Positions 1,473-15,629 of a stretch of 43,340 nt of DNA are shown one piece after another; the first letter of the stretch is position 1; each line of letters starts with the position of its first letter. Below the pieces are notes generated by a model. That model saw only the letters and a program-made list of their open reading frames with translations, was not told where the DNA came from and made no database searches. Source of the stretch: a virus. The stretch spans positions 1-43,340 of the IMG/VR virus record IMGVR_UViG_3300033153_004362. One strand, given 5' to 3'. The position numbers and the translations under genes were made by a program.

Positions 1473-1650
1473 CCAGAAATTCGGCCCCTCGACGTTCCAG
1501 CCGGACAAGCCGTGCCCGGTATGGGAGAACGAGAACTGGCTGTCACGCCTGCACAAATGCCGGAAAACGCTGTACCTACACGGCTTCCTGACTGACGCCG
1601 AAAACCGTGAGGTCATGGAACGCCTGCCCCAGGAGATCGTGGAGAGATGA
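1465..1650 (+). CDS. Small hypothetical protein
   Basis: A 61-residue ORF whose ATG overlaps the end of the previous gene (TAG 1470-1472). It reads MGSQKFGPSTFQ... and is rich in Trp, Cys and Arg with one pair of cysteines 17 residues apart, too far for a classic zinc ribbon. Upstream in-frame starts fall inside the previous gene and are less likely. Its stop overlaps the ATG of the next gene by four bases, so it is translationally coupled. Function unknown. Confidence 0.6.
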   Translation: MGSQKFGPSTFQPDKPCPVWENENWLSRLHKCRKTLYLHGFLTDAENREVMERLPQEIVER

Positions 1651-1880
1651 CTGAGCCCTGCCGCAGAGAACGAGTCCCAGGTCCAGGCAAGCCCGTCTGG
1701 GTCTGGGTGCCGACCCGATGGCCGTCCCCCCTCTCGGAGCGCAACCATGAAATCATCAGGCTCAGGCACAAGGAAGGCTTGACGTTGGTGGAGATCGGTA
1801 AACGCTACGGGATCAGCAAGCAACGGGTCTGCCAGATCGCCGGAAGTTCAATCCTTGCACTCCCACAGGCGGCGCTGTAG
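1647..1880 (+). CDS. Small helix-turn-helix protein (sigma-70 region 4-like fold)
   Basis: A 77-residue protein. Residues about 33-66 (RNHEIIRLRHKEGLTLVEIG, then KRYGISKQRVCQI) are a clear helix-turn-helix of the sigma region 4/LuxR type: the recognition helix would be GISKQRVCQI. The short C-terminal tail ends exactly at the TAG that opens the endonuclease-linked RNA element, so the natural C-terminus may have been cut by that insertion. It could be an early transcription regulator; no partner is visible. The start overlaps the preceding stop (ATGA). Confidence 0.65.
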   Translation: MTEPCRRERVPGPGKPVWVWVPTRWPSPLSERNHEIIRLRHKEGLTLVEIGKRYGISKQRVCQIAGSSILALPQAAL

Positions 1881-2015
1881 GTTTAGGTGTCGCCCGGTCT
1901 TTCCCCCAAGGAGTTTTTATGTTTTACGGACCCACCCAGCCGGACTTGGACAGAGACTCCTTCGGGATACCTGGCGACAAACCAAGGCTCGGTTCGGGTG
2001 GGTTTCTTTTTTTGG
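1878..2015 (+). ncRNA. Pseudoknotted RNA element, copy 1 (before the GIY-YIG gene)
   Basis: This shares long sequence blocks and the same fold with 5541-5675. Helix P1 pairs 1888-1894 with 1973-1979. Helix P2 (AAGGAGT/ACTCCTT) pairs 1908-1914 with 1956-1962. Helix P3 (ACCCACCC/GGGTGGGT) pairs 1930-1937 with 1996-2003 and crosses P1 and P2, so it makes a pseudoknot. A small hairpin AACC/GGTT (1980-1983 with 1991-1994) lies between P1 and P3. A run of ten U in eleven bases (2003-2013) follows P3 at once, which looks like a terminator tail. Against the other copy, several pairs change on both sides (G-C against A-U in P1, A-U against G-C at the P3 base). It begins exactly at the TAG stop of the HTH gene. 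No known RNA class recognised. Confidence 0.7.
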
Positions 2016-2026
2016 GGTGGGGATGA
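1919..2026 (+). CDS. Possible 35-residue leader peptide inside RNA element 1
   Basis: AAGGAG, then TTTTT, then ATG: a good ribosome site opens a frame that runs through the whole RNA element and stops at a TGA overlapping the ATG of the GIY-YIG gene. The peptide starts MFYGPTQPDLDRDSF. The matching ATG in the second element opens the in-frame extension of the HNH gene, and the two share the pattern Pro-Thr-x(4)-Asp-Arg. This may be a real leader that couples translation to RNA folding, or simply an open frame in RNA. The SD itself is one strand of helix P2. Confidence 0.3.
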   Translation: MFYGPTQPDLDRDSFGIPGDKPRLGSGGFLFLGWG

Positions 2027-2328
2027 GCAACTGGATTCGGTTTGAGCCGGATGCGGGGGTCTGTGTCCCAGAGGTTCCAGGGTGCTACGTTATTTTCGGT
2101 GATGGTGAGGTTGTCTACGTTGGGCAAACCGTCAACATGAGAATGAGGATGCGTAGCCACGGGATCAGGATTTGGCACTACTCCGCCCAGTTTAAAACTC
2201 CGTGGGGAAACTTCAGTGAGTTGTACGGCAAGAGACGGGTTTCCAAGCGGTATGGTGACTGGGCGATGGTAGAGGTTCGCCTCATCAACCGCCTCAATCC
2301 ACCAGGGAACAAAAGGAAGCCGAGATGA
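2023..2328 (+). CDS. GIY-YIG homing endonuclease-like protein
   Basis: A 101-residue protein with a GIY-YIG nuclease domain: GCYVIFGDGEVVYVGQT (about residues 20-36) holds the two motif segments, basic residues follow (MRMRMRSHG), and the glutamate of MVEVRLINRLNPPGNK near residue 82 fits the metal-binding Glu. The family cuts DNA, mostly as homing endonucleases or repair nucleases. There is no visible DNA-binding extension, so it is a minimal free-standing form. ATG 2023 is preferred to upstream in-frame starts because those would read through the RNA element. The stop overlaps the ATG of the replication gene. Its structured leader is shared with the HNH gene at 5687. Confidence 0.8.
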   Translation: MSNWIRFEPDAGVCVPEVPGCYVIFGDGEVVYVGQTVNMRMRMRSHGIRIWHYSAQFKTPWGNFSELYGKRRVSKRYGDWAMVEVRLINRLNPPGNKRKPR

Positions 2329-3074
2329 GCGACCTTCCTTGGTTCCCGTTCTACGTATCGAGGTTTCTAGGGTCTCGGAGAGTGCGTCGGATGAGTACCG
2401 AGCAGATCGGTATCTACCTCTTACTTCTCTGTGAACAATGGGAGGGTGGAGCAATCCCAAACAACGATGCTGATTTAGTGCGCTTCACCAACACCTCTGC
2501 TAGCAATGCTAGGACAGTTCTCCAGCAATGCTTTAGCCTAACTAGCGAGGGTTGGCTAAACCCAGAATTGGTGGAAATACAAGTAGAGCAAGAGGTTAGG
2601 CGGGACAAGAGGGTGTCCGCTGGTTCCAAGGGCGGCACACAAAAAGCTGCCAACCGGCTAGCAATGCTAGAGGCGGAGGCTAGCAATGCCCTAGCAATAG
2701 AGAAGAAGAGAGTAGAGGAGAAGAAAGAAATAGTTATTGTGGGTGGTGGAAAAAAGAACAACTACCCAGAGGCTTTTGAGGCATGGTGGTTACTGTATCC
2801 AAGACGTGAAGGTGGCAACCCGAAGAAACCATGTCTCCCGAAATGGAAGCAGGCCGTGAAGGAGGTTGGAGAAGAAAAACTAACATCTGCCGTCACCACC
2901 CTTCGACGATATCACGAAAGTAAAAGGGAGGTTGGGACACCTCACGTTCCCCAAGCCCTCACATGGCTTAACCAGGCCCGGTGGGAGGACGCACTGAAAA
3001 TTGAGCCCCTACCCCCTGACCGCCTCACCCGAGAGACGCTGGCGCTCTGGAACAAGGGGACGGACGATGATTGA
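2325..3074 (+). CDS. DUF1376/O-like phage replication protein
   Basis: A 249-residue protein. The N-terminal 75 residues match the winged-helix pattern of DUF1376-type phage replication proteins: LPWFPFYVSRFLGS, EQIGIYLLLLCEQW, then a GGAIPNND step and a short Thr/Ser-rich helix. The C-terminal half has FEAWWLLYPRR and LTWLNQARWED, typical of phage O/DnaD-like replication proteins that act with a helicase. The next gene is a DnaB-like helicase, so this is probably the origin-binding or helicase-loading protein. The middle of the gene carries repeated CTAGCAATG motifs followed by an A/G-rich stretch, like the lambda origin inside O. The start overlaps the GIY-YIG stop. Confidence 0.75.
   Translation: MSDLPWFPFYVSRFLGSRRVRRMSTEQIGIYLLLLCEQWEGGAIPNNDADLVRFTNTSASNARTVLQQCFSLTSEGWLNPELVEIQVEQEVRRDKRVSAGSKGGTQKAANRLAMLEAEASNALAIEKKRVEEKKEIVIVGGGKKNNYPEAFEAWWLLYPRREGGNPKKPCLPKWKQAVKEVGEEKLTSAVTTLRRYHESKREVGTPHVPQALTWLNQARWEDALKIEPLPPDRLTRETLALWNKGTDDD
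2499..2765 (+). other. Candidate replication origin with in-gene iterons
   Basis: The 8-mer CTAGCAAT occurs at 2500, 2658, 2680 and 2691. The first two copies are part of the palindrome CTAGC-AAT-GCTAG (2500-2512 and 2658-2670), and 2680-2694 is a near copy. Directly after the last copy (about 2695-2765) the plus strand becomes a nearly pure A/G run that is poor in C. Iterons inside the replication-protein gene followed by an A-rich, purine-biased DNA-unwinding stretch is the layout of the lambda origin. That this protein binds these repeats is inference. Confidence 0.5.
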
Positions 3075-3987
3075 CGGCTTCGACGACATCCTCCACCCCG
3101 GGTACAGCAACCAGTTCTTTGGCCGACAGGCTGAACCGCCTGAAGCGATCCCGACGTTCAGCGAGACCTGGAACGCGGTCTGCCGAAATGCCGGAGGCCG
3201 GATCGGGCTGGCCCTGGGCTGGCACGTCATGGTGGCCGGGGCCGTGAACATGGGCAAGAGTATGATGATGTTAAACCTTGCGGCTGACGCCCGTAGGGGC
3301 GAGTACGACGCAGCAATCATCTCGGAAGAGATGGCTCGGGATGAAATAACATATAGGCTTTATCCTATACTCTCGGGGGTGGAAGCTGAGAAGATGGAGC
3401 GCGGGGCGGTTGAAAAAGGATTACTCCTGAAGATGAACCAACTTCTGTCTGAGCCCTACGAGACATCCGGTGGGACGCCGACGAAGCTGTGGGTCAACGA
3501 CAAACCTCTCCGAAAACTCGACAAGGTTATTGAAAACCTGCACGCGCTCATGGACGAGGGGGTCCGGGTCTTCATGGTGGACTACCTTCAACTGCTTCGG
3601 GGTAGGAGTGGTCAGGACATCCGCGAGCGGGTGGAGGAAGTTAGCTCAGAGTTGTTCGACTTCGCCCACAGCCACAAGGTTTTGACGATTGGACTCAGCC
3701 AGTTCAATCGGAACATGAGCCGGGACAAGAACGTCGAGCCGGTGATGGAGGGGATGCTCGGAGGCCAGAGCTTGGAGGCCGACGCCGATCAGGTCGTGAT
3801 TCTCGACCACAGCCGCTACGAAGCTGATCTGGAAAAGCCGTGGCTGGCCCGCACTTTCTTGAAGATCGACAAGAACCGCCACGGCCAGAAGAAGGTGGAC
3901 GTGCCGATTGAATGGGACTGGAAGACGTTCCGCACCCGCGAAGCTCTCCCCGACGAGGAGCACCTATGGCCTGGAGCCGGAAAATGA
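3067..3987 (+). CDS. DnaB-like replicative helicase (RecA-fold ATPase)
   Basis: A 306-residue protein. The P-loop GAVNMGKS is at about residues 58-65, Walker B-like VFMVDYLQLL at about 169-178, and the helicase motif GLSQFNR at about 208-214, followed by a GGQSLEADADQVVILD stretch typical of DnaB C-terminal domains. It lacks the DnaB N-terminal primase-binding domain, so it is a core-only hexameric helicase. It would unwind the fork with ATP; the preceding gene probably loads it. The start at 3067 overlaps the previous stop and is chosen over an upstream start at 3001 inside that gene; the upstream purines AAGGGGACGG are a fair ribosome site. Confidence 0.85.
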   Translation: MIDGFDDILHPGYSNQFFGRQAEPPEAIPTFSETWNAVCRNAGGRIGLALGWHVMVAGAVNMGKSMMMLNLAADARRGEYDAAIISEEMARDEITYRLYPILSGVEAEKMERGAVEKGLLLKMNQLLSEPYETSGGTPTKLWVNDKPLRKLDKVIENLHALMDEGVRVFMVDYLQLLRGRSGQDIRERVEEVSSELFDFAHSHKVLTIGLSQFNRNMSRDKNVEPVMEGMLGGQSLEADADQVVILDHSRYEADLEKPWLARTFLKIDKNRHGQKKVDVPIEWDWKTFRTREALPDEEHLWPGAGK

Positions 3988-4193
3988 AAAAGTTTCTATG
4001 GGTGGCCGCGCTGTTTGTTTTTCTCTGGCTCGGGACCACTGGCTGGAGCCAGATCCCAGAGCGCCGACCCGAGATCGAGGTTTACCGGGTCGAGTTGGAG
4101 GACGGTAGGCATATGTACTGCGCGGCGATCACCTGGTTTAGCCAGGTCGGGATAGACTGTAACTGGAACTTTGAGGAGACGGGGGATGAGTGA
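3984..4193 (+). CDS. Small secreted/exported protein with signal peptide
   Basis: A 69-residue ORF starting MKKFLWVAALFVFLWLGTTG, a clear signal peptide (two Lys, hydrophobic core, small residues) likely cut near Gly-Trp-Ser-Gln. The mature part is about 45 residues with two cysteines (Tyr-Cys-Ala, Asp-Cys-Asn) that could form a disulfide. The ATG overlaps the helicase stop (ATGA); an alternative start at 3966 adds six residues. Its neighbour is a papain-like hydrolase, so the pair could act in the envelope. Function unknown. Confidence 0.6.
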   Translation: MKKFLWVAALFVFLWLGTTGWSQIPERRPEIEVYRVELEDGRHMYCAAITWFSQVGIDCNWNFEETGDE

Positions 4194-4911
4194 GACACCA
4201 CCCGTAAGGACCAGAATCACCGCCTGCACCTTTGGCCCTGTAGCCCCTGACAGCATTCAGGTCGGGCCGTCTGACGTAGAGATTACAGACTGCGTTTTTG
4301 ACCCACCACTCACCGGAGACCGACAAATGAAGTATGAACTCGGCGACATCATCATCAGCGGAAGCAAGGGAAACAACTGGCTTGGCCGGGCGATCCGGCT
4401 GTTCACCCGTAGTCCCGGCGAACCGGCGACGAGGGCCACGCACGTAGCCATGGTTCTCGGCGTAGCCGGCAAGGGCCGGTTGATTGATTGCACAGTCATC
4501 GAAGCCGTTTCCAAGGGCGTGAAACTTCACCGCTACGGCAAGCCCTACAAGTGCATCGTCTACCGCGCCAGAGATCTGACCGAAGACGAGCGCGACTGCA
4601 TCTACACTGAAGCCTGGAAGCTCAGGGGCACGAAGTACGGCTACGTCAGGATCCTGGCCCACGCGCTCGACTGGATTACTTCAGGAGCGAGGTCGTACCG
4701 TTTCCGCAAGAAGGTGAAGGGCGGCGACCTAGCTGGCAGAGAGTGCAGCAACGTCATCACCTATCTCTGGAAGAAGTGCCGGGGCCTGACCTTCGGCGTC
4801 CCGGCCTACGCCGCTTCCCCTGACGACATCGACGACTACTGCCTCTGGAACCCGAGGAAATACGACGTTGTCCGGGAGTGGGGCAGGTACAAGGGCCGGA
4901 AGGAGGACTAG
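4186..4911 (+). CDS. Papain-like/NlpC-P60-type (YiiX-like) hydrolase
   Basis: A 241-residue protein. From about residue 48 the order is: a strand YELGDIIISG, a histidine in THVAMVLG (about 86) and a cysteine in GRECSNVITYLW (about 187). His before Cys is the circularly permuted papain order of the YiiX/DUF830 and LRAT-type group, which hydrolyses amide or lipid-type bonds. Residues 1-47 are a separate-looking segment with two Cys-x-Phe repeats (ACTFGP, DCVFDP). The internal ATG at 4327 has its own GGAG and would give the 194-residue hydrolase alone, so two products are possible. It could be a cell-wall or host-takeover enzyme; its place in the early region argues against a simple endolysin. 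Confidence 0.6.
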   Translation: MSETPPVRTRITACTFGPVAPDSIQVGPSDVEITDCVFDPPLTGDRQMKYELGDIIISGSKGNNWLGRAIRLFTRSPGEPATRATHVAMVLGVAGKGRLIDCTVIEAVSKGVKLHRYGKPYKCIVYRARDLTEDERDCIYTEAWKLRGTKYGYVRILAHALDWITSGARSYRFRKKVKGGDLAGRECSNVITYLWKKCRGLTFGVPAYAASPDDIDDYCLWNPRKYDVVREWGRYKGRKED

Positions 4912-5013
4912 GAGGCCCGTGGAGGGGCCATACGGGTACCTGGAAGGCACGAGGGCGGCTCAGAGGTATCAGGGGTAGGGTAGAGGGTCCGTGGACGTTA
5001 GAGGGGCGATTCG
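4912..5013 (+). other. Intergenic, G-rich, with a small hairpin
   Basis: About 100 bases without a convincing gene. The plus strand is strongly purine-rich. A 5-bp hairpin GGCCC/GGGCC lies at about 4912-4928. A 64-residue frame from 4878 crosses it but has no ribosome site and ends inside the RuvC-like gene. Confidence 0.4.
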
Positions 5014-5469
5014 ATGAACATTCTTGGGCTGGATTTAGGGTCGAAAATGGGTTGGTGTTTGCTCTGGTCTGACGGGCGGGTCGATTTCGGCGAGGAGGAC
5101 TGGCTCAAACTACCCAGGCGTGAACGGCTGATGAAGTTCGGCGAGTGGCTGACCGACAAGCTTCCTCTCGTGGACGCCGTCGTCTTTGAGGAGGTACAGA
5201 CTTCGTTCGGCTCGGGTAGCTGGGTGATCTTCAGGCAGGAGGGGATCCTGACCTTCCTCTGCCGAGCAAAGCCCTTCTTTGGGGTCAACCCTTCAACCTT
5301 AAAAGGTTTCGCCGTACCCGGAAAGAAGGGGACGAAGGCCGCCATGACTGAGGCGGCGAAGAAATGGTTGACGGAGAAAGGCGTGGACGTACCGGACCTG
5401 ACGGACAATGAGGCCGACGCGGTGTGTGTGGTTGCATGGGCCGTAGAACACCTGAGGAGGGAGAAATGA
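5014..5469 (+). CDS. RuvC-like Holliday junction resolvase
   Basis: A 151-residue RNase H-fold nuclease. The first catalytic Asp is in NILGLDLGSKMGW (residue 7), a Glu is in AVVFEEVQ (near 60) and the last acidic pair is in TDNEADAVCVVAWA (about 130-137). The length fits phage and poxvirus-type RuvC-like resolvases, which cut four-way junctions before packaging or during recombination. The GAGGGG eight bases upstream supports the start. It sits with Gam-like and replication genes. Confidence 0.8.
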   Translation: MNILGLDLGSKMGWCLLWSDGRVDFGEEDWLKLPRRERLMKFGEWLTDKLPLVDAVVFEEVQTSFGSGSWVIFRQEGILTFLCRAKPFFGVNPSTLKGFAVPGKKGTKAAMTEAAKKWLTEKGVDVPDLTDNEADAVCVVAWAVEHLRREK

Positions 5470-5543
5470 CACCACCGGAGCCCCAGACAATGAGTGTTGA
5501 GCGAGTGGCGAAGTGGCTGGACTCGGACGACCAATCTCGGTAG
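5466..5543 (+). pseudogene. 25-residue gene remnant cut by RNA element 2
   Basis: ATG overlaps the RuvC-like stop (GAAATGA) and gives MTPPEPQTMSVERVAKWLDS plus five residues before TAG at 5541-5543. That TAG is the exact first triplet of the second endonuclease element, as the TAG of the HTH gene is in the first. It reads like the N-terminus of a longer small gene (VERVAKWL helix) whose 3' part was lost or displaced when the element inserted. Confidence 0.45.
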
Positions 5544-5675
5544 ATTTAGGTATCGCATAGACCTTCTGAGCGAGGAGCTTTTTCATGCAAATCACGCCCA
5601 CCCGTACTACTTGGGATAGAACTCCTTGCGAGGGCTATGCGATAACCCAGGCGGTGCGCGGTGGGCTTTTGCGTG
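5541..5675 (+). ncRNA. Pseudoknotted RNA element, copy 2 (before the HNH gene)
   Basis: Same order and fold as 1878-2015. P1 is TATCGCATAG with CTATGCGATA (5551-5560 with 5635-5644, ten pairs). P2 is GCGAGGAG with CTCCTTGC (5570-5577 with 5622-5629, one G-U). P3 is GCCCACC with GGTGGGC (5596-5602 with 5660-5666) and forms the pseudoknot; four U follow. Unpaired segments are kept almost unchanged: the AGGAG-(C)TTTTT-ATG block and ACTTGG...AGA before ACTCCTT. Pairing kept while bases differ between copies points to a selected RNA. No known class recognised; HEARO/omega RNA and lariat-capping ribozymes are other RNAs found near nuclease genes but do not match in order. Confidence 0.7.
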
Positions 5676-5686
5676 GAGGTCATACC

Positions 5687-6187
5687 ATGGGCTTGTTCGA
5701 TAACGAGGAATGGCGAACCATTCCAGATTTTCCCAATTACCAAGTCAGCGACATGGGGCGGCTGCGGAATCGGCGTAGGCTGTTGGGGCCAACCAACTCT
5801 GGGCGTAAGTGCGCGAACGGGACGTGGTACCAGTGGACCACCATCTGTAACAAGACCCAGAAGAAAAGAGTGGGGGTCCACCAACTGGTCGCATTGTGTT
5901 TCATTGGACCACTCCCCGACGGATTCCAGGTTGACCACAAGAATAGCATCCGGTCTGACAATCGTAGAGAGAACCTTCGGTATTTACCGAGTAAGCTCAA
6001 CGCAGCAATGCACGATGCCCCAAACGGGGAGTCGGTAAACCACGCCAAACTCAGTGAGAAGGACGTTCTTGACATACGGGCGCGCTATGAGAGCGGCGAG
6101 CTTCAACGCACCATCGCTAAAGACTACGGGCTCCACAGAAGCACGGTAGGGAGCATCGTCACGAAAACGACATGGAGGCACATATGA
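5687..6187 (+). CDS. NUMOD4/HNH homing endonuclease
   Basis: A 166-residue protein. Residues about 6-30 (EEWRTIPDFPNYQVSDMGRL) are a NUMOD4 module, and the HNH core is VHQLVALCFIGPLPDGFQVD followed by HKNSIRSDNRRENLRYL. The C-terminal 45 residues (LSEKDVLDIRARY ... IAKDYGLHRSTVGSIV) are a helix-turn-helix that would bind the target site. This is the classic free-standing phage homing endonuclease layout. ATG 5687 has GGAGG seven bases upstream. The frame is open upstream to ATG 5585 inside the RNA element, which would add 34 residues. Its stop overlaps the next ATG. Confidence 0.9.
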   Translation: MGLFDNEEWRTIPDFPNYQVSDMGRLRNRRRLLGPTNSGRKCANGTWYQWTTICNKTQKKRVGVHQLVALCFIGPLPDGFQVDHKNSIRSDNRRENLRYLPSKLNAAMHDAPNGESVNHAKLSEKDVLDIRARYESGELQRTIAKDYGLHRSTVGSIVTKTTWRHI

Positions 6188-8424: not shown

Positions 8425-8735
8425 GACGCCAGAACCCGAAGCGCCGGAAGAGGGAGTGGCTCCGGGCTTATGACTCTCTGGAGTTCGTCGCTTACACCCA
8501 TCAGAGCCCGTCCGTCGCCAGTGGCAGGGGGCCGTGCGTGTGCGCTCACGTCAAGCCGGACACTGGACTGCCTGTCGGCATGGGCCGGAAGGCGGACGCC
8601 TGTTGGGTGGTGCCGTTGACGTTGGACGAGGAAAGGGAGAAGCACCAGCACGGCGAGGAATCTTTCGAGAAGAAGCACAGGATCAGTTTACCAGACGAAG
8701 CCCGTAAACACTGGAGGGATTATGGGAAAGGCTAA
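8421..8735 (+). CDS. DUF968/HNH-like putative recombination nuclease
   Basis: A 104-residue protein. After a basic N-terminus (MRRQNPKRRKREW) it has CVCAHVKPD, then GMGRKADACWVVPLTLDEER and HQHGEESFEKKHRI. The order Cys-x-Cys-Ala-His, Gly-x-Gly-x-Lys-x-Asp, VPL, then a His-rich segment is the pattern of DUF968-type HNH proteins of lambdoid recombination regions. Typical members have a second HxxxH; here HQHGEE takes that place, so activity is not certain. It fits the recombination theme (Gam-like, RuvC-like). Confidence 0.5.
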   Translation: MRRQNPKRRKREWLRAYDSLEFVAYTHQSPSVASGRGPCVCAHVKPDTGLPVGMGRKADACWVVPLTLDEEREKHQHGEESFEKKHRISLPDEARKHWRDYGKG

Positions 8736-8916
8736 GACGTTCCGCTACATCATCAAGGGCGACGGCCACTATCACCCGGGCGGGGACTGTCAGTGCCTGA
8801 AACCGACCCGTCTCAGGCGCTACAAGCACCACTGGCAGTGCGTCTGTGGCAGGCTAGCTGTTTACAAAGGCCGGATCGACCCGAGCCTCTGGAGACCTAC
8901 GGCTTCTCCTCGATAG
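8722..8916 (+). CDS. Small zinc-ribbon-like protein
   Basis: A 64-residue basic protein, with GGAGGGATT before the ATG. Four cysteines occur as CQC and CVC about 22 residues apart, with several His between them, so a metal site is likely. It is the last gene of the rightward early operon; its end overlaps the end of the leftward gene at 8897 by 20 bases. Function unknown. Confidence 0.6.
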   Translation: MGKAKTFRYIIKGDGHYHPGGDCQCLKPTRLRRYKHHWQCVCGRLAVYKGRIDPSLWRPTASPR

Positions 8917-9106
8917 CGTTCTCGTATCCTTCCTCCCACCATTCGACGGCCACGTACCCGTTCTCACACACCTGACAGCGTTTGTGCTTAATGACGGGCT
9001 CGTAGGGGCCTCCCTGACCGGCGCACATTCTTTCCCCGACTCGCACCTCGACGTACCCGCCCTCGCACTCCTCGCACTCTCTCCAGTGAAGAGGTGGCCC
9101 ACTCAT
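8897..9106 (-). CDS. Small protein with two zinc knuckles
   Basis: A 69-residue protein; ECEECEGG and CQVCENG are two Cys-x2-Cys knuckles of the DnaJ central-domain type, which bind one zinc. It is the last gene of the leftward operon and converges on the rightward early operon. ATGA overlap with the gene upstream (9103-9279). No partner is seen. Confidence 0.65.
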   Translation of the reverse strand: MSGPPLHWRECEECEGGYVEVRVGERMCAGQGGPYEPVIKHKRCQVCENGYVAVEWWEEGYENAIEEKP

Positions 9107-9279
9107 CGGTTGCGCCTCCGGCTTTCACGGACCATTTGCAATCGGGCCTTCCGTCTGAGCCACCACTTTCGGGGCATCGTGCTTTGGATTCGTCCACGTC
9201 TCTGGGTGTAGCCACCCCCTCCCGCCATCATCGCCAAGGGCAAAATACCAGCCAACAATGCCGCCTGTGAACGCTTCAT
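9103..9279 (-). CDS. Tiny membrane-anchored basic protein
   Basis: A 58-residue ORF with GGAGG nine bases upstream of ATG 9279. The N-terminus MKRSQAALLAGILPLAMMAG is a signal peptide or TM anchor; the rest is strongly basic with Arg-Arg and Trp-Trp. A longer frame from 9645 has no ribosome site and overlaps two better genes. Start and stop both overlap neighbours by ATGA. Confidence 0.55.
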   Translation of the reverse strand: MKRSQAALLAGILPLAMMAGGGGYTQRRGRIQSTMPRKWWLRRKARLQMVRESRRRNR

Positions 9280-9389
9280 TCTCCCGACCTCCATTTCCGT
9301 TTGATAGATTCCCGGTCCTCCAGCCCCACACAGAGCCAGGCCAGGAGACAGATACATCCGATCACGAAACACGGGCCGCGCCAGGTCAT
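9276..9389 (-). CDS. Tiny single-pass membrane protein
   Basis: A 37-residue ORF with a hydrophobic segment FVIGCICLLAWLCVGL (about residues 8-23) and a charged C-terminus (EDRESIKRKWRSGE). Both ends overlap neighbours by ATGA, the main support for it being real: its ATG overlaps the stop of 9386-9583 and its TGA overlaps the ATG of 9103-9279. Confidence 0.5.
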   Translation of the reverse strand: MTWRGPCFVIGCICLLAWLCVGLEDRESIKRKWRSGE

Positions 9390-9583
9390 GGGGTGGGTTC
9401 CTCTGCCAAGGCACAGCGATTGCAAAGCAAGGGCGTGGCTGGGTGCTCAGAAGCAGGGAACATATCTTCAACCGGGAACCGGACACCGCATCGAGCACAT
9501 GGATATTCGCCGTTGCTGTCGATAAGGTCAGCCTGTGCCTCCATTTGGGCCTCAAGAACCTCCACCGGGTCTGGTATATGCAT
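9386..9583 (-). CDS. Small zinc-ribbon protein
   Basis: A 65-residue protein. YPCARCGVRFPVEDMF and later LLCNRCALAEE are two Cys-x2-Cys pairs 27 residues apart, a classic zinc ribbon. The N-terminal 25 residues form an acidic helix. One base separates it from the upstream stop. Function unknown. Confidence 0.65.
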   Translation of the reverse strand: MHIPDPVEVLEAQMEAQADLIDSNGEYPCARCGVRFPVEDMFPASEHPATPLLCNRCALAEEPTP

Positions 9584-9584
9584 C

Positions 9585-9815
9585 CTATCTCTCTCCCTCC
9601 GTCATGGCGATGGCGGCATGGATCTTTTGTTGCGTAGTCTGCCACCTGTCCACGTCACCACATTTACCTTCGCTAGCCAGCCATGACAAGAAGGTATTTG
9701 CGCCCTTCGCCGCCTCCAGCAGCGCGTCACGTTGGGCCAAGAGGTCGGCGTTCTCGGCCCTGAGCCGGTCAATACCTTGACTGATTCTCTGAAGTCCCGC
9801 AAAGATGTCCTGCAT
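9585..9815 (-). CDS. Small coiled-coil protein
   Basis: A 76-residue protein. MQDIFAGLQRISQGIDRLRA followed by ENADLLAQRDALLEAAKGAN is a long coiled-coil helix, then a short FLSWLASEG segment of the kind seen in many small phage proteins. GAGGAGAGAG precedes the ATG. Confidence 0.65.
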   Translation of the reverse strand: MQDIFAGLQRISQGIDRLRAENADLLAQRDALLEAAKGANTFLSWLASEGKCGDVDRWQTTQQKIHAAIAMTEGER

Positions 9816-9864
9816 TCTCTCTCTCCTCGGTTGTCGCCTTCAACGGCCTTCTACCCCTACCTAG

Positions 9865-10071
9865 CTACCTTTTCAGCGTCCACGGCTCTCTCCGGGCCTG
9901 TAAACGCTGTTCCTCGGCGCGGGCAAGCGGGTAGAGGCGGGCGTATTCTCGTTCGTAGGCTCGCCAGTCGTTTGTTGACCACTTTTTCCTGCCGGACAGG
10001 CGCATACTTCGGTCGCCAGCCTTCCGGGCGTCGGCCTGGGCCTTCTCGTAGGGCGCGGTTATGGGTTTCAT
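9865..10071 (-). CDS. Small basic helical protein
   Basis: A 68-residue protein rich in Arg, Lys and Ala (YEKAQADARKAGDRSMRLSG; WRAYEREYARLYPLARAEEQ). GGAGAG precedes ATG 10071. A longer frame from 10290 lies inside the next gene. Could bind nucleic acid by charge alone; no family recognised. Confidence 0.6.
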   Translation of the reverse strand: MKPITAPYEKAQADARKAGDRSMRLSGRKKWSTNDWRAYEREYARLYPLARAEEQRLQARREPWTLKR

Positions 10072-10075
10072 GGGA

Positions 10076-10468
10076 CTACTCTCTCCATTTCTTTTCGATT
10101 TCAAACTCAGAGAGCCCCACGTACTTCTCGAAGGTCCAAGAGGCAATAGGGTTGTCCTCATGGTTCTGTTCGCTGCCTTCCGCATGGAAGGAGACGGTCC
10201 GGGCCTTTGGGTCCACCTTGATGATCGGGTACTCGTTGTCGGGCCGGTAGGTGGCGATGCCGAATCCCGTTTCCTCACCCTGTACCCCATCCGTCATCTG
10301 GTCGAAGATGATGCGTGTGAGGTAGGAGCCATCTCCCCACCGGACACGACGGGCGAGGGCTTTCTGTACGTCCAGCGGTAGCACAGATCCTCCCCAGTGC
10401 GAGTAGAGATAGACGGGATCGGTGTTCCCCCAGTCCTGCACGACCATGACGTTTGCTCTGTCTCCCAT
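10076..10468 (-). CDS. Conserved hypothetical protein (MGDRANV family)
   Basis: A 130-residue protein. It starts MGDRANVMVVQDW and has YLYSHWGGSVLPLDV, then WGDGSYLTRIIFDQM and GFGIATYRPDNEYPI. This is a widespread single-domain family in phages and high-GC bacteria without known function. AGGAGG lies seven bases before ATG 10468, so the longer in-frame start at 10561 is rejected. Confidence 0.7.
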   Translation of the reverse strand: MGDRANVMVVQDWGNTDPVYLYSHWGGSVLPLDVQKALARRVRWGDGSYLTRIIFDQMTDGVQGEETGFGIATYRPDNEYPIIKVDPKARTVSFHAEGSEQNHEDNPIASWTFEKYVGLSEFEIEKKWRE

Positions 10469-10497
10469 AATGTACCTCCTCTTTCTCCTGGAATGGT

Positions 10498-10776
10498 TCA
10501 CTCTTTCACGAGTTCGGGGTATCCGCCCTGCGGGTTCAGGTTGTTGACGCAACGTGCCCAAAGGTCTAGGGCCTCGGAAAGGTTCTTCAGGGCTTCGGCA
10601 TCCTCGGGGTGGCTGTGTTCCATTCGTAGATAGGAGTCCTCCAGCGCACCCCAGGCACAGTTGGCCACCTCGATCACTTCCTGACGGGCCTCTAGCTCAC
10701 CCTGTACGTTAAGGGCGTGTTCCTCGCTCAGTGACAGGCCACCTACGGCCCGTCCGGTCTTTGGAAACTGGTTCAC
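10498..10776 (-). CDS. Hypothetical helical protein, GTG start
   Basis: A 92-residue protein. The start codon is GTG with AAGGAG nine bases upstream, placed in the end of the previous gene. The body is helical and acidic (LEARQEVIEVANCAWGALED). Several phages have similar small proteins; function unknown. Confidence 0.6.
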   Translation of the reverse strand: MNQFPKTGRAVGGLSLSEEHALNVQGELEARQEVIEVANCAWGALEDSYLRMEHSHPEDAEALKNLSEALDLWARCVNNLNPQGGYPELVKE

Positions 10777-10779
10777 GGC

Positions 10780-11058
10780 TTACTCCTTTTCGGCGGCGGC
10801 GATGGCGGTACGGGCGGCCTCAATCGCTACCAGTTTATGAAAGTCTTTCTTCACGTTGAGCTTCCGCCCGAATTGCCCGAATTCCCGCACCATTAGCTTC
10901 AGCGCCTCCAACATGGCGGGGAAGTTGTTGGCAGCGCGTACAATGTATTCGACGTCAGGCTCGCACTGGCTTGTTACGGTGCCATCCACCGTGCAAACCC
11001 TATCCTCTCCCGCCATAATCCAGTCCTGGCTAATACTCCACGGTAAGCGCGTGTGCAT
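10780..11058 (-). CDS. Hypothetical protein
   Basis: A 92-residue protein starting MHTRLPWSISQDWIMAGEDR. The segment EPDVEYIVRAANNFPAMLEA is the pattern of a common small phage protein (D..fI..A.n..p.lL..l) of unknown function. AGGAGAG precedes ATG 11058. Confidence 0.65.
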   Translation of the reverse strand: MHTRLPWSISQDWIMAGEDRVCTVDGTVTSQCEPDVEYIVRAANNFPAMLEALKLMVREFGQFGRKLNVKKDFHKLVAIEAARTAIAAAEKE

Positions 11059-11069
11059 TTTCTCTCTCC

Positions 11070-11141
11070 TCAATAGGGGAAGCGCCTCCTGACCCACGGA
11101 TGGGCCAGGAAGGCTAGTAGGGCGAAGAGTAGGGCGGGCAT
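11070..11141 (-). CDS. 23-residue membrane miniprotein
   Basis: ATG lies one base after the stop of the upstream gene. The peptide MPALLFALLAFLAHPWVRRR is a single hydrophobic helix with a basic end. Position (coupled start, fills the gap between two genes) and composition suggest a real miniprotein, but it is too short for certainty. Confidence 0.4.
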   Translation of the reverse strand: MPALLFALLAFLAHPWVRRRFPY

Positions 11142-11142
11142 G

Positions 11143-11841
11143 TCAGACCCCGAGTTGGAGGTACAGGTATCGGGCGACGGTTTTCGACACCCAACCCCAG
11201 GAAATGAAGGGCTTCTTGCCTTCGACAATTGCCCCCCAATCCCAGAAATACGCATCACCCATGCCCCTGGATTTCATGGCGTTGAAGAGAAGGGCGGGAA
11301 CGTAGTAGTTGTCGTCCATGTGACTGAGGTAATGGTCGGCTTGCCGGTCTCCCATGGGCTTTCCGTCCTCGGAACCAAGGGCACAGAACCAACAATCACC
11401 CCCGGAAGGTAGGGGCACTTCTCCGGCCTTGAAAGCCGTCTCGAAAGCCTTGGCAAAATCCCGTATCCTCTTTCTCAGGGCTTGCGTTTTCAGGACCGAA
11501 AAACCGACCGGAACATGGAACCCGCCACGGGGACCGATACGGAAGCCGTCGCCATAGGGCTGGCGTTTCTCGGAGTCCCACCGGCCGTCCGACACATACC
11601 AGACGCCCTTGTCAGAGTAGATCCGGCAAGGTGCGTAGCTGTTCATTCTGTCTTTCGTGGTGACTGTCTTCCAGCCCCCGGAATTGAGGACACAAGAACC
11701 ATCCGGGAGGTATGTCACCACGTCGGTCTCGTGAAGGAGAACGGCGATTCCCTTCTCTCTCCGTTGGAGGTAGGTATTGTTTTCCAGCTTTCGGGAAACT
11801 CGGTTCCCTAGCTTGGTCTCAGCTTCCTTGAACGTATTCAT
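11143..11841 (-). CDS. Conserved hypothetical protein
   Basis: A 232-residue protein, the largest in the leftward operon. The N-terminal half (LENNTYLQRREKGIAVLLHE; TDVVTYLPDGSCVLNSGGWK; TTKDRMNSY) is the recurring phage pattern 'LxxNTxL / LHxTdVv / TxxRlN'. The C-terminal half has GGDCWFCALG and HYLSHMDDNYYVPALLFNAM. The Cys-x2-Cys, His and Asp clusters suggest a metal site. This two-part family is common in actinobacterial and other phages, function unknown. AAGGAG precedes ATG 11841. Confidence 0.7.
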   Translation of the reverse strand: MNTFKEAETKLGNRVSRKLENNTYLQRREKGIAVLLHETDVVTYLPDGSCVLNSGGWKTVTTKDRMNSYAPCRIYSDKGVWYVSDGRWDSEKRQPYGDGFRIGPRGGFHVPVGFSVLKTQALRKRIRDFAKAFETAFKAGEVPLPSGGDCWFCALGSEDGKPMGDRQADHYLSHMDDNYYVPALLFNAMKSRGMGDAYFWDWGAIVEGKKPFISWGWVSKTVARYLYLQLGV

Positions 11842-11869
11842 TTTCTCTTTCTCCTTAGAAGGACGGGCG

Positions 11870-12229
11870 CTAGACGCTCCAGGGCCATCTCCGAGCCCTA
11901 CGGCCACGCCCGAAGTCTACTAGGCGGAACGTCTCGCCGCCTATGGTGGTCTGGCCTCGGGCAAGCTCCCTGGCGTGCCTATGGGCCACGGGGCCAGTCA
12001 TTTCACAAAACGGGCCTACGGTGTGAATCTCTCCCCGGCGGTCCATGACCCGGACAGTGTAGGCCCGGGGACCGTGGGGCGGCTTCTCACTGGAGACGAA
12101 AACGTATCTATCGAGCTTTCGGTTCCAGTGCTGGCGGTCGCTTACTCGTGACCGGAAAAAGCGCATGGTCTCAGGACTGAACCAATAGCCCCGGGGGTTC
12201 CGATTCCTATACTCTGTTTCGACGCTCAT
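11870..12229 (-). CDS. Conserved hypothetical protein (YWFSPETMRFF type)
   Basis: A 119-residue basic protein with GYWFSPETMRFFRSR, then VFVSSEK and YTVRVMDRRGEIHTVGPF. This pattern recurs in small phage proteins of unknown function. ATGA overlap with the upstream gene. Confidence 0.65.
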   Translation of the reverse strand: MSVETEYRNRNPRGYWFSPETMRFFRSRVSDRQHWNRKLDRYVFVSSEKPPHGPRAYTVRVMDRRGEIHTVGPFCEMTGPVAHRHARELARGQTTIGGETFRLVDFGRGRRARRWPWSV

Positions 12230-12435
12230 TTCCCCATCTCCTGAAAGTGATCTCTTTCGATTCTATCTGCTTCAACCCACCACGAACCTAGGCCCGTAGT
12301 GACGGACACTTCGACAACGCCACCTCTTTCTCGATAGTCAAGCAAGCGAACCCGGAGAGATCCGGCCTTGTTACAGATTCTCCCTTTCAAGGCTTGCCAT
12401 TGGCCCACACTGTCGGAGAACTCGGATAGGGTCAT
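12226..12435 (-). CDS. Small hypothetical protein
   Basis: A 69-residue protein starting MTLSEFSDSVGQWQALKGRI. ATG 12435 lies four bases after the upstream stop, so it is likely coupled; a TTG at 12453 in frame would add six residues but has no ribosome site. C-terminal half is beta-rich (VVEVSVTTGLGSWWVEADRI). Confidence 0.55.
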   Translation of the reverse strand: MTLSEFSDSVGQWQALKGRICNKAGSLRVRLLDYRERGGVVEVSVTTGLGSWWVEADRIERDHFQEMGK

Positions 12436-12439
12436 GGGG

Positions 12440-12709
12440 TTACCATCTGGCAAAGGGTGGGAGGTTGGTATAGGTCTCTTCGGCCCTTTCTTCGTATTTC
12501 AGTGCGGAGGAGATTTCGCCCCTAAGCCTGCAATGTTTAGCTATTGCAAGGTTCTTGGCGAAGGTGGCGAGGTTCTTGGTTGCAGTTTTCGTGCCTTCCC
12601 CTCCATCTGGGAAGAGCTTCTGATACCTGTATCCCTTAGCGTGTCGGGCAAAGAAGGCCCAAAGGTCTGCCCGTTCCATTGCGTCTAGGTTTGGTACATT
12701 GTTCTCCAT
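12440..12709 (-). CDS. Hypothetical helical protein
   Basis: An 89-residue protein, MENNVPNLDAMERADLWAFF then a series of amphipathic helices (LRGEISSALKYEERAEETYT). The N-terminal 'NLDaM...dL..F' pattern is frequent in small phage proteins. The ribosome site is weak (CTAAGAAA). Confidence 0.6.
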   Translation of the reverse strand: MENNVPNLDAMERADLWAFFARHAKGYRYQKLFPDGGEGTKTATKNLATFAKNLAIAKHCRLRGEISSALKYEERAEETYTNLPPFARW

Positions 12710-12713
12710 TTTC

Positions 12714-12989
12714 TTAGCTCCGTATGGCGGGATGGTCGGGACCGAATCTATCCCGAAGGAAGTCGGAAGTGATGGCGTTAAACTCGTCAGCAGGGCAAAG
12801 GGGATCAGCCGTTCCCATGCTGCCAGTCGAAACGTCCACCAGGTCGCCGCTCAGATCGAATTCGGCAAACATTGGACGCCCCGAAAGCTCAGAGCAAGGC
12901 CAGGAAGCCCCCGGGCGGTGCGCCCAATCGTAGGTATCTCTAGCAGATAGCCAGAGCTTGGTCCCAAAATCTCCGCGCGAAACTCTCAT
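12714..12989 (-). CDS. Conserved hypothetical protein
   Basis: A 91-residue protein: KLWLSARDTYDWAHRPGASW, then PCSELSG and LVDVSTGS, PADEFNAITSDFL. The pattern 'LSa.dT..WA......WPCS.l......a.fd..GLvd' recurs in phages and bacteria without known function. AGGAGGTGG precedes ATG 12989; the longer frame to 13157 is rejected. Confidence 0.65.
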   Translation of the reverse strand: MRVSRGDFGTKLWLSARDTYDWAHRPGASWPCSELSGRPMFAEFDLSGDLVDVSTGSMGTADPLCPADEFNAITSDFLRDRFGPDHPAIRS

Positions 12990-13051
12990 TTTCTCCACCT
13001 CCTGAAAGTAAATCAACTCCCGGACCCTAACGGCCAAGCCTGGGAAAAGGG

Positions 13052-13336
13052 CTAGCCTCTTTCCCGAAGCTCTTCGATTGCGAGGTTCTCCGTGGCGTAG
13101 GGACCAAAGGGGAGAGAATCGGGCAGGCAACCGGGGAAACAATACCAAAAGAACCACCCTTCACCATCGGGCAAATCTCTTCTCGGCCCATTGCACTCCG
13201 GGCAGGGTCCACCCGTTCCCGAAACATCATGATCGCCACAATCAGGACAAAGGATATACGGGGAGTAGAATACCTCAACGTCTGGCAATGCGTAGGGGTC
13301 GGATTCTCTCCTGGGGTCTGAATAATGCTGGGACAT
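13052..13336 (-). CDS. Zinc-binding hypothetical protein
   Basis: A 94-residue protein with CPDCGDHD and CPECNGPR, two Cys-x2-Cys pairs 14 residues apart (zinc ribbon), and a further pair in WYCFPGC. A Tyr/Pro-rich N-terminus precedes the ribbon. It follows a 66-base gap that holds the T-arm-like hairpin. Confidence 0.65.
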   Translation of the reverse strand: MSQHYSDPRRESDPYALPDVEVFYSPYILCPDCGDHDVSGTGGPCPECNGPRRDLPDGEGWFFWYCFPGCLPDSLPFGPYATENLAIEELRERG

Positions 13337-13365
13337 TTTCCGTCTCCGTCTAAGGGTCAGTCCTG

Positions 13366-13386
13366 GGGCCGGAGTCGAACCGGCCC
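13366..13386 (-). other. tRNA T-arm-like hairpin
   Basis: Read leftward, GGGCCGG-TTCGACT-CCGGCCC is a perfect 7-bp stem with a 7-base loop that fits the tRNA T-loop consensus TTCRANY. No D arm, anticodon arm or acceptor partner is found within 100 bases, so it is not a tRNA gene. It sits in the gap between two leftward genes (13337-13402). Confidence 0.5.
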
Positions 13387-13402
13387 ACGTCCGTGCCGGG
13401 GG

Positions 13403-13555
13403 TTAGTCGTCGTTCGTTGAGGCGAGTTTGCGGAGCCGCGCCAGAATTTCGAGGGAATCGGGGCCGATGATTTGGCCCATCTCCCAACCAGACTCTTCGT
13501 CGTAGACCCGCACAATGGACTTCCCCTTCTCCACGTCCAGCACGAACACCATCAT
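13403..13555 (-). CDS. Small hypothetical protein
   Basis: A 50-residue protein starting MMVFVLDVEKGKSIVRVYDE, with AAGGGGGAG before the double ATG. A TTG start at 13606 in the same frame would overlap the upstream gene. Compact beta then helix; function unknown. Confidence 0.55.
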   Translation of the reverse strand: MMVFVLDVEKGKSIVRVYDEESGWEMGQIIGPDSLEILARLRKLASTNDD

Positions 13556-13577
13556 CTCCCCCTTGTCAGTGACCCGC

Positions 13578-13784
13578 TCAGGCCGACTCCTGGGTGTCGG
13601 CCTCAAAGGAATCTCGCATCGGGTCGAGGCTTTTTCCTGTGTAGACTTCTACGTTCTTGGTGACTTGCGGGCCAACCGCAGAAAGTCCAATAGAGTCGAG
13701 CATAATTTGAAGGTGTCGAACCGCTGCTCGTACCTCTTTCTCTGGTCCGTCTAGTTCAATGCAGAAAATCGTGTGCTCGTCCAT
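13578..13784 (-). CDS. Small hypothetical protein, first gene of leftward operon
   Basis: A 68-residue protein starting MDEHTIFCIELDGPEKEVRA, then VRHLQIMLDSIGLSAVGPQV. AAGGGGGATAGG precedes ATG 13784; the frame to 13853 has no better start. The 'beta, long helix, beta' look fits a small ferredoxin-like fold. As first gene it would be read from promoters in the control region to its right. Confidence 0.6.
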   Translation of the reverse strand: MDEHTIFCIELDGPEKEVRAAVRHLQIMLDSIGLSAVGPQVTKNVEVYTGKSLDPMRDSFEADTQESA

Positions 13785-13887
13785 CCTATCCCCCTTGGTT
13801 AAGGTCTGGCCCTTTACTGTGCAGATCCCATGCCACAACCAAAAAGTGAGCATCTAAGCCAAAAAGAGGAAGCGACCGAGAGCGAGT

Positions 13888-13926
13888 AGTGCGGTAAATC
13901 GCGGATTTCTCGCAAAATACCGCACT
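13888..13926. promoter_or_regulatory. Nested inverted repeat
   Basis: AGTGCGGTA (13888-13896) pairs with TACCGCACT (13918-13926), nine perfect bases; inside lies AAATC-GCG-GATTT, a second palindrome. It stands about 100 bases upstream of the first leftward gene, so it may be an operator or an RNA hairpin in its leader. Confidence 0.45.
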
Positions 13927-14163
13927 AGAGGCTTCGGGAAACCTTCGGTTCCCCCACACCCCAGCCGCGACCCCACAACACCTCTTAATGGCAAATCAGC
14001 AGATACACAGAAGCAAGACAGACAGATGACAGGAGAAGCAAGAGGAAGGGGAGAAGGGAAGGGTCAGTGTAGAGACGGGAGAAAGGTCAGGCGTGTATGG
14101 GTACGGGTAAGGGGTAAGGTGTGGGCAAGGTATGGTGTCGGAGTAGGGGAAAGGTCTGTAGGT

Positions 14164-14214
14164 GTGTCAATTAGACACGCCCTATTAGACCAGGTGGTCG
14201 TGTCAATGTGACAC
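14164..14214. promoter_or_regulatory. Three tandem palindromes, likely repressor operators
   Basis: GTGTC-AATTA-GACAC (14164-14178), GACCA-GG-TGGTC (14188-14199) and GTGTCA-ATG-TGACAC (14200-14214). The first and third share the half-site GTGTCA. On the minus strand both contain TTGACA, a perfect -35 hexamer, so binding could control leftward promoters, though no good -10 is seen at the right distance. Confidence 0.55.
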
Positions 14215-14438
14215 GGTATTAGGTGTGGTGAACGTTCTATGTTTCCAGGGGGTAGGCACTTTCACTCCCCGGAAAGCTCGCGCCACCACTAGCTTTTTAG
14301 GGCCTCGACCCCCGGACCCGGCCCCTACCCCAGGACTGGCTCCGACGTGCCTCAGATGGCCCGTAAAGACCCTTCAACGGCTAACCCGGGACCAGGCCCT
14401 ACCCAGGAAATGGGCCTAAGCGGGTACGGCGCAAGGGT

Positions 14439-14467
14439 TTGGCGGGTTATCCACAGTGGCGTATAAT
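14439..14467 (+). promoter_or_regulatory. Sigma-70-type promoter overlapping a DnaA-box 9-mer
   Basis: TTGGCG (14439-14444), 17 bases, TATAAT (14462-14467). The spacer holds TTATCCACA (14447-14455), the E. coli consensus DnaA box. Just after lies ATAATA-TC-TATTAT, an AT palindrome in otherwise GC-rich DNA. The transcript would start near 14474. Confidence 0.55.
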
Positions 14468-14473
14468 ATCTAT

Positions 14474-14551
14474 TATGTAAAGCTAGGCCAGGGGGTGTTT
14501 TCGGTCCCTGGCGTCCAGGAAGGAAGGAAAGGCCGGCCCCTAGCTTTTCTT
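14474..14551 (+). ncRNA. Candidate approximately 75-nt small RNA
   Basis: From the expected start of the promoter above, the RNA would begin with AAAGCTAGG (14479-14487), which pairs with CCTAGCTTT (14539-14547) followed by TCTT. Inside is a hairpin CCTGG-CGT-CCAGG (14507-14519). A closed fold ending in a U-rich tail right after a promoter suggests a discrete RNA, comparable in size to lambda OOP. No target is known. Confidence 0.35.
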
Positions 14552-14871
14552 CATCGCGCTTCTTCAAAGGTAAATTACCCCTACCCTCGGGCCAATCCAG
14601 TTTCCCCGAACCAGACCCTTAACCTAGGAACATACCCTTTTACCGTTGGTACGTCTGAAGAAATGGCTTCCCGGGGCCAGTTCCAGGCCACCTAACCGAC
14701 CCGTGAAAAGCCCCAAAACCGACCTAACCGTGCGAATGACAAGCACTTAGCTACCCGCGTGTAACCTTTGAAATGCCTCGAAACACGGGGGTTTGACCCG
14801 GAATGGCCGGTTCCGACCCGACCCAGGGGCCTTTTCGGGAACGGGTGGGGCTGTTAGTTTCCGTTTAGGTC

Positions 14872-14900
14872 TTGTGCTGGGGTCTGGGGGGTGGTAGAGT
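14872..14900 (+). promoter_or_regulatory. Putative late promoter
   Basis: TTGTGC (14872-14877), 17 bases, TAGAGT (14895-14900), moderately close to consensus. It is the last promoter-like site before the long rightward operon 15119-41332 and would place the cloverleaf RNA (14969-15099) in the leader. Confidence 0.35.
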
Positions 14901-14924
14901 GGAGTATCCTGACCAGAGGAGGTG

Positions 14925-15107
14925 ATGCCCAATGCCGACGATAACTCCCATAGACCAGTTGTGACCCTACCCCTTCAGTGGTGGTTGCGGTGCGTGGCGA
15001 TCCCGCAATCAGTCACGCGCTCACGAAAGCTGCTCCGTTCGATAGCGGCAACGCATGGGCAGAGTCGGTGTGAATCCGGCCAACCGTCACTGAAGGGGTT
15101 CTTTTAA
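14925..15107 (+). CDS. Possible 60-residue ORF overlapping the structured RNA
   Basis: ATG 14925 lies two bases after AGGAGG, too close for good initiation; an overlapping ATG at 14932 is better spaced and opens a 10-residue frame (MPTITPIDQL). The longer frame covers the cloverleaf RNA to TAA 15105-15107 and encodes a Trp/Arg-rich sequence with no recognisable domain. I favour RNA over protein here, with the short frame as a possible leader peptide. Confidence 0.2.
   Translation: MPNADDNSHRPVVTLPLQWWLRCVAIPQSVTRSRKLLRSIAATHGQSRCESGQPSLKGFF
14969..15099 (+). ncRNA. Cloverleaf-like structured RNA upstream of packaging genes
   Basis: A closing helix pairs 14969-14987 with 15081-15099: 19 consecutive pairs with only two tandem G-U wobbles. 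Inside are three hairpins: GCGTG/CACGC (14992-14996 with 15014-15018), GCTGCT/AGCGGC (15029-15034 with 15044-15049) and GTCGG/CCGGC (15064-15068 with 15076-15080). The last has a 7-base loop TGTGAAT, a T-loop-like sequence, and stacks directly on the closing helix as a T arm does on an acceptor stem. TTCTTTT follows. The piece GGTGTGAATCC and the later CACTG also resemble cobalamin riboswitch core motifs, but the rest of that fold is missing. No known class assigned. Confidence 0.5.
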
Positions 15108-15118
15108 GGAGAGTGGAG

Positions 15119-15382
15119 ATGACGAAAGAGCAGTGGGCGGAGATCCTTTTGATCGAGAAAGGCTGGCCTGCGGGGTTTTTCTACGGCCCCATGCTGGCTG
15201 ATATTTGCGATGTCGCTGGCCCGGCTGGTCTTGCTGCGTTCTTGTTGAAAGGGCACTTCACCCGGGCCGACGTGGAGGTGCTTCGTGAGATTCAACAACG
15301 GGGTGGCGACGCTTGGTGGTGCGACGACATTGATGTGGGTGAGATCGCCGACCGCATCCAAGCCCTCCTACCCGATGACTGA
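15119..15382 (+). CDS. Hypothetical protein, first gene of late operon
   Basis: An 87-residue acidic helical protein (MTKEQWAEILLIEKGWPAGF ... VLREIQQRGGDAWWCDD). AAGGAG lies seven bases before ATG 15119. Ends with an overlap into the SWIM-type gene. Function unknown. Confidence 0.6.
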   Translation: MTKEQWAEILLIEKGWPAGFFYGPMLADICDVAGPAGLAAFLLKGHFTRADVEVLREIQQRGGDAWWCDDIDVGEIADRIQALLPDD

Positions 15383-15629
15383 CCGCCTGGAGCTTGCCCG
15401 GGGTTTGACAGTGGCGGAGGTGGAAGGCGGTTTTCTGGTGTCGGGTCATTGGGTAAATTCTGAGCTTGACGATTGTGATTGCGGCGATTTCATTTGGAGA
15501 GGTGGTCCTTGCAAGCATATTTTAGCGGTGAAACTTTTTCAGGAGGAGAGAGAGCATGAGGAAGTCGAAGTTTCAGGAGAGGGCGGAAGCGAAGATGCTG
15601 GAGTTGGCGACGGCGGCGGAAAGCGTTAG
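15375..15629 (+). CDS. SWIM zinc-finger-like small protein
   Basis: An 84-residue protein. CDCGDFIWRGGPCKHILAV is Cys-x-Cys-x(n)-Cys-x-His, the signature of the SWIM zinc finger, which binds DNA or protein partners. The C-terminus is an acidic Gly-rich tail. Start at 15375 overlaps the previous stop. In this place, before the terminase, it may help packaging or late regulation; that is inference. Confidence 0.7.
   Translation: MTDRLELARGLTVAEVEGGFLVSGHWVNSELDDCDCGDFIWRGGPCKHILAVKLFQEEREHEEVEVSGEGGSEDAGVGDGGGKR

Follow-up and report, generated by a model that had tools for sequence, protein, structure and literature searches.

Two homologous leader RNAs with competing hairpins precede unrelated endonuclease genes in an uncultured phage

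Two endonuclease genes of unrelated folds in one uncultured phage are each preceded by a copy of the same leader RNA, a real, structured and duplicated element with an unusual layout of two interlocked hairpins (H1 and H2). The leaders, copies A and B, are found in the IMG/VR record IMGVR_UViG_3300033153_004362 (58.7% G+C), which was analysed over its whole length of 43,340 bases and is referred to here as the window. Both hairpins are conserved in the two copies, and they compete for the same bases. We see about an even chance that the leaders belong to a single family of regulatory RNA that acts in cis, has two states and gates expression of the downstream endonuclease. Selfish nuclease genes must restrain the amount of their own enzyme, and a single leader RNA ahead of two unrelated nucleases would mean that nuclease genes can acquire this control as a separate part. 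The two-hairpin layout, with its fixed ribosome spacings, is moreover a specific design for a limiter of this kind, and one that is inexpensive to test. Coordinates of all features are given in Table 1.

Table 1. Leader RNAs, hairpins and associated reading frames in the window
Feature	Coordinates	Strand	Details
Leader RNA, copy A	1878..2012	+	Homology to copy B
Leader RNA, copy B	5541..5675	+	Homology to copy A
H1 of A	1886..1983	+	Arms ~1886-1914 and 1956-1983; -39.4 kcal/mol, z -3.7
H1 of B	5549..5648	+	-39.0 kcal/mol, z -5.3
H2 of A	1930..2003	+	-31.8 to -32.7 kcal/mol, z -2.5; followed by UUCUUUUUUU
H2 of B	5596..5666	+	-38.7 kcal/mol, z -4.9; followed by UUUUGCG
ORF upstream of A, sigma-70 region 4-like	1647..1880	+	77 aa; Pfam Sigma70_r4, 46.2 bits
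Short ORF upstream of B	5466..5543	+	25 codons; AGGAGG-type Shine-Dalgarno sequence; predicted from sequence
Leader ORF of A	1919..2026	+	35 codons; UGA (2024-2026) overlaps the GIY-YIG start (ATGA, 2023)
Leader ORF of B	5585..5686	+	34 codons, continuing into the HNH gene as a single open frame (5585-6187)
GIY-YIG-type endonuclease gene	2023..2328	+	101 aa; stop overlaps next gene start at 2325
NUMOD4/HNH_3 endonuclease gene	5687..6187	+	166 aa; stop overlaps next gene start at 6184

The phage has only distant known relatives; in databases, the closest phage matches to its terminase, helicase and resolvase share ~24-35% identity. According to Pfam and PHROG, the genes in the first 6 kb are tightly packed on the same strand, and they comprise Gam-like, sigma-70 region 4-like, GIY-YIG-like, DUF1376/replication initiator, DnaB-like helicase, RuvC-like and NUMOD4/HNH genes. 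Among the replication genes, the protein encoded at 4171-4911 matches PHROG_1128 and, judged from its sequence, looks like a YiiX/NlpC-P60-like hydrolase. Elsewhere in the record, a region of ~7 kb (8700-15800) is filled with short ORFs, seven of which were scanned and gave no Pfam match. Two very large ORFs are located at 19162-22563 (1133 aa, with no PHROG match) and 36027-40406 (1459 aa).

A GIY-YIG gene follows copy A and a NUMOD4/HNH gene follows copy B, as the first-pass annotation of this DNA had described. The gene behind B matches both HNH_3 (53.3 bits, 2.1e-14) and NUMOD4 (34.3 bits, 2.8e-8) above the Pfam cut-off, and is further matched by PHROG_59. The GIY-YIG match of the gene behind A (20.1 bits) is below the Pfam cut-off of 22.6 but is supported by PHROG endonuclease matches; an AlphaFold model of this protein, made without an alignment, was uninformative (pLDDT 38). 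The whole record contains one HNH_3 match and one GIY-YIG match, both of them in the genes that the leaders precede.

The claim that the two leaders share conserved blocks in the same order was also borne out. Local alignment of A (1878-2006) with B (5541-5670) gives a score of 245, compared with 90.8 +/- 14.2 (maximum 170) for 3000 dinucleotide shuffles of B, and of 1704 windows of the genome, on both strands, none matches either copy better than the other copy does. When B alone was used to build a covariance model, the model recovered A with either set of pairs, at 39.5 bits (E=1.5e-8) with those of H1 and at 45.0 bits (E=6.9e-10) with those of H2, and found no third copy within the window. 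Conservation of an encoded protein was considered and rejected as an explanation. The conserved GGAYAGA-ACTCC block contains a 1-base indel that puts the copies in different frames, so that they show no conservation at the protein level, and no pair of frames is prominent.

H1 is a single long, interrupted hairpin that corresponds to two helices, P1 and P2, of the first-pass annotation. In both copies its stem buries the Shine-Dalgarno sequence AGGAG (AAGGAG at 1908-1913 in A and GAGGAG at 5572-5577 in B). All 16 homologous pairs, which were fixed by hand, are standard, with ten pairs the same in the two copies, one changed on a single side, five changed on both sides and none broken. When the changed positions were redrawn at random, all pairs remained standard in 0.9% of cases (P ~0.009). 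The five double-sided compensatory changes are located in P1, while P2 is nearly invariant. The counts given for the hairpins are the hand-checked ones; an uncorrected covariance-model alignment gave ten double changes, a number inflated by register slips.

H2 has a layout common to A and B, which consists of eight or seven outer pairs, a 1-base bulge on the 3' side, six further pairs, a small internal loop, and an inner helix between CUUGG(G) and (C)CCARG. Its 18 homologous pairs, likewise fixed by hand, are all standard (ten the same, three single changes, five double changes, none broken), an outcome that a random redraw of the changed positions reproduced in 0.06% of cases (P ~0.0006). Four of the five double changes fall in the middle helix, which has no pair in common between the copies (AGCCGG/UCGGUU versus CGUACU/GGUGCG) and is nevertheless paired in both. 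G-U pairs are present in H2 of A and of B, and these fit pairing in the transcript of the plus strand. In copy A, the 5' arm of H2 (CCCACCC, 1931-1937) has an alternative partner, GGGGUGGGG, within 2013-2026, just before the GIY-YIG start codon. The duplex between the two is calculated at -16.4 kcal/mol versus -15.1 kcal/mol for P3, the outer end of H2. This pairing could represent a third state of copy A, which would hide the start region of the endonuclease itself.

The two hairpins are interlocked, each having one arm in the loop of the other (the 5' arm of H2 and the 3' arm of H1). A CC dinucleotide (1982-1983 in A, 5646-5647 in B) is claimed both by the basal G-G/C-C pairs of H1 and by the inner CUUGG/CCARG helix of H2. 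The main P1 stem is separated from that inner helix by a gap of 1 or 2 bases, and H1 and H2 thus cannot both form in full. With these two cytosines claimed by both, H1 and H2 make better sense as alternative structures than as parts of a single pseudoknot. The leaders thereby have two mutually exclusive hairpins, both conserved through compensated pairs, as in transcription attenuators.

The first-pass annotation had instead proposed a pseudoknot in which P3 crosses P1 and P2. The pairing and the compensatory changes that it described are real (five in P1 and one in P3, from A-U to G-C), but P3 turns out to be the end of the longer hairpin H2. The pseudoknot is probably the wrong architecture, as two competing hairpins account for the conserved CUUGG and CCARG, which it would leave unpaired. 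A pseudoknot formed by H1 and only the outer 7-8 bp of H2 is possible, and H1 and P3 alone look sterically compatible, with ~16 nt estimated between the base of H1 and the 3' arm of P3. The P3 complementarity of eight and seven Watson-Crick pairs would furthermore be expected by chance with probabilities of 0.006 and 0.03. A static structure of this kind, in which the two helices would together bury the Shine-Dalgarno sequence and the start codon and exert translational control only, is in our view unlikely, since it leaves unexplained both the middle helix of H2, where most of the double changes occur, and the conserved CUUGG/CCARG helix, and since the full H2 is incompatible with H1.

The competing hairpins are positioned at fixed distances from a stop codon and a start codon. 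The conserved leader opens with the UAG that terminates the upstream ORF (1878-1880 in A, 5541-5543 in B), and the first base of H1 lies 8 nt from the U of this UAG, identically in A and B. An AUG follows the AGGAG within the loop of H1 (1919 in A, 5585 in B), and H2 begins 11 nt from the A of this leader AUG, a distance that is again identical in the two copies. A stop-codon readthrough signal was rejected, as a second in-frame UAG is found two codons on in both copies. No promoter was detected within the leaders by a scan for the sigma-70 consensus, which may not be the consensus used by this phage. The 25-codon ORF that ends at leader B has a strong Shine-Dalgarno sequence, lies between the RuvC-like gene and the leader, and may either encode a leader peptide or be what is left of a gene disrupted by the insertion.

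From these features we infer a gate with two states. In the H1 state, the long hairpin would cover the Shine-Dalgarno sequence of the leader start codon. In the H2 state, a long hairpin and a U-rich tract would stop or pause RNA polymerase ahead of the endonuclease gene. A ribosome that terminates the upstream ORF at the UAG would hold H1 open, leaving the Shine-Dalgarno sequence exposed, and a ribosome that initiates at the leader AUG would hold H2 open. The same ribosome would then pass into the endonuclease gene, through the stop-start overlap in A and the in-frame fusion in B. As the opening of H1 would depend on the ribosome at the UAG and that of H2 on the ribosome at the leader AUG, the nuclease would be produced only from transcripts under active translation, and at a low level. 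The HNH gene of B has a good Shine-Dalgarno sequence of its own (GGAGG, 7 nt before 5687) and may do without the leader AUG.

Support for such a gate comes from the sequences of two copies in one genome, and termination is its weakest step. The U-rich tail after H2 of B is short (UUUU only), and terminator scores of the d'Aubenton-Carafa type are negative in both copies (-2.4 in A and -5.5 in B). Terminator-like sites occur in the leader region at chance frequency. Interlocked hairpins of similar energy before TTTT are also present elsewhere in this G+C-rich genome, for which reason energy alone is not evidence for a switch.

An arrangement without switching would have H1 acting as a Shine-Dalgarno-hiding hairpin of the T4 type, and the role of H2 limited to termination or stability of the upstream gene's transcript. 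In copy A, the more stable of the two folds is H1, and hairpins that hide the Shine-Dalgarno sequence are carried by T4 I-TevI and segB and by Aeh1 mobE (PMC2988022). We nevertheless judge this arrangement to be quite unlikely. H1 and H2 share bases and are both conserved, which favours alternation between them, and the site hidden in T4 is that of the endonuclease itself, whereas here it belongs to a leader AUG ~100 nt upstream.

The conserved block could also have been kept for reasons other than regulation, as the 5' end of a mobile cassette, at the DNA or RNA level, that is used for homing or for insertion after a stop codon. The upstream stop codon is the exact starting point of both copies. 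Each endonuclease gene also overlaps, through ATGA, a following gene that starts with ATGAGCGA, an 8-mer with only three occurrences in the window that may mark an insertion site or a common N-terminus. Against such a cassette, which we regard as very unlikely, the base changes are compensated and the G-U pairs are on the plus strand, A and B have no common 3' block, and no empty site was found, as no relative with these neighbours came to light.

Relatives of the leader were sought in several collections. Rfam, at gathering and permissive thresholds (E<=5), returned nothing except one chance lncRNA match. Scans of IMG/VR with patterns of the conserved blocks gave 21, 0 and 3 matches, all in unrelated sequences, and the 69 pattern matches in GTDB genome contigs are close to chance expectation and include no real match to the covariance model (R2). 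A blastn search of INPHARED phages and PLSDB plasmids yielded only two 24-base matches, to Enterococcus phages. Of the viral contigs that encode a helicase related to the neighbouring one, 44 loci and 16 complete records contained no match to R2; none of them carries the neighbours of A or B, and an empty insertion site was therefore not to be found there. Bacterial genomes from the phyla of three loci were likewise negative (0/398, 0/297 and 0/301, ~1000 in total), in scans for which the window itself was a working positive control and the phyla were guesses at the host. Five relatives of the HNH gene, in Streptomyces, Sinorhizobium, Pseudomonas and Microcystis phages, were inspected and have no such leader; these genes abut the preceding gene or lie within ~30 bases of it. 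Exact-match scans can miss diverged copies, and the absence of relatives is thus not strong.

The first-pass annotation had further proposed that the RNA is a module, mobile or adopted, which controls, protects or spreads with free-standing endonucleases of any nuclease type. A structured RNA does lie in cis directly before both genes, but its spread beyond this phage is unsupported. As no further copies were found in any of these collections, the general claim of an RNA that travels with endonucleases rests on two copies in one phage and is unproven. It is conceivable, if doubtful, that the leaders represent a new RNA family with two interlocked hairpins, which senses ribosomes at a stop and a start codon and passes between free-standing endonuclease genes with unrelated folds, supplying them with a ready-made limit on expression.

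Attenuators of the trp/his type have two mutually exclusive hairpins, the second of which is followed by U residues, and a stop codon just before the first. The leaders resemble them in all three respects, but have no run of regulatory codons, a weak tail in B, and a start site of their own inside the first hairpin. Copy B, a structured RNA located 5' of a gene for an HNH nuclease, is reminiscent of HEARO or omega RNA with IscB; this identification was rejected, as there is no Rfam match and the nucleases are NUMOD4/HNH_3 and GIY-YIG by Pfam and PHROG rather than IscB. Lariat-capping ribozymes and group I introns are also RNA elements linked to homing endonucleases. These too were rejected, since Rfam gives no group I match, the genes are flanked by intact ORFs, with ATGA junctions, and no intron core is found downstream.

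The closest parallels are in T4-like phages, where RNA hairpins over the Shine-Dalgarno sequence, together with stop-start overlaps, hold back homing endonucleases (PMC2988022). The hairpin-controlled genes named there are I-TevI, I-TevII, I-TevIII, segB and Aeh1 mobE, and they span at least two nuclease families, as segB and the HNH gene mobE illustrate (PMC2988022). The leaders described here are similar in being structured RNAs directly 5' of phage endonucleases of different families, with a Shine-Dalgarno sequence in a stem and a stop-start overlap. The T4-like cases are described in this review as single hairpins, with no common RNA reported across genes (PMC2988022), whereas our leaders are homologous and have two competing hairpins. 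Unlike in T4, moreover, the frame that begins at the hidden site lies upstream of the endonuclease, entering the HNH protein in B and overlapping the endonuclease start in A. In the openly accessible literature, we found no description of such a leader. Since hairpins and overlaps already control endonucleases in T4-like phages, this kind of control is known; what is new is a homologous leader before two unrelated nucleases, together with its layout of competing hairpins.
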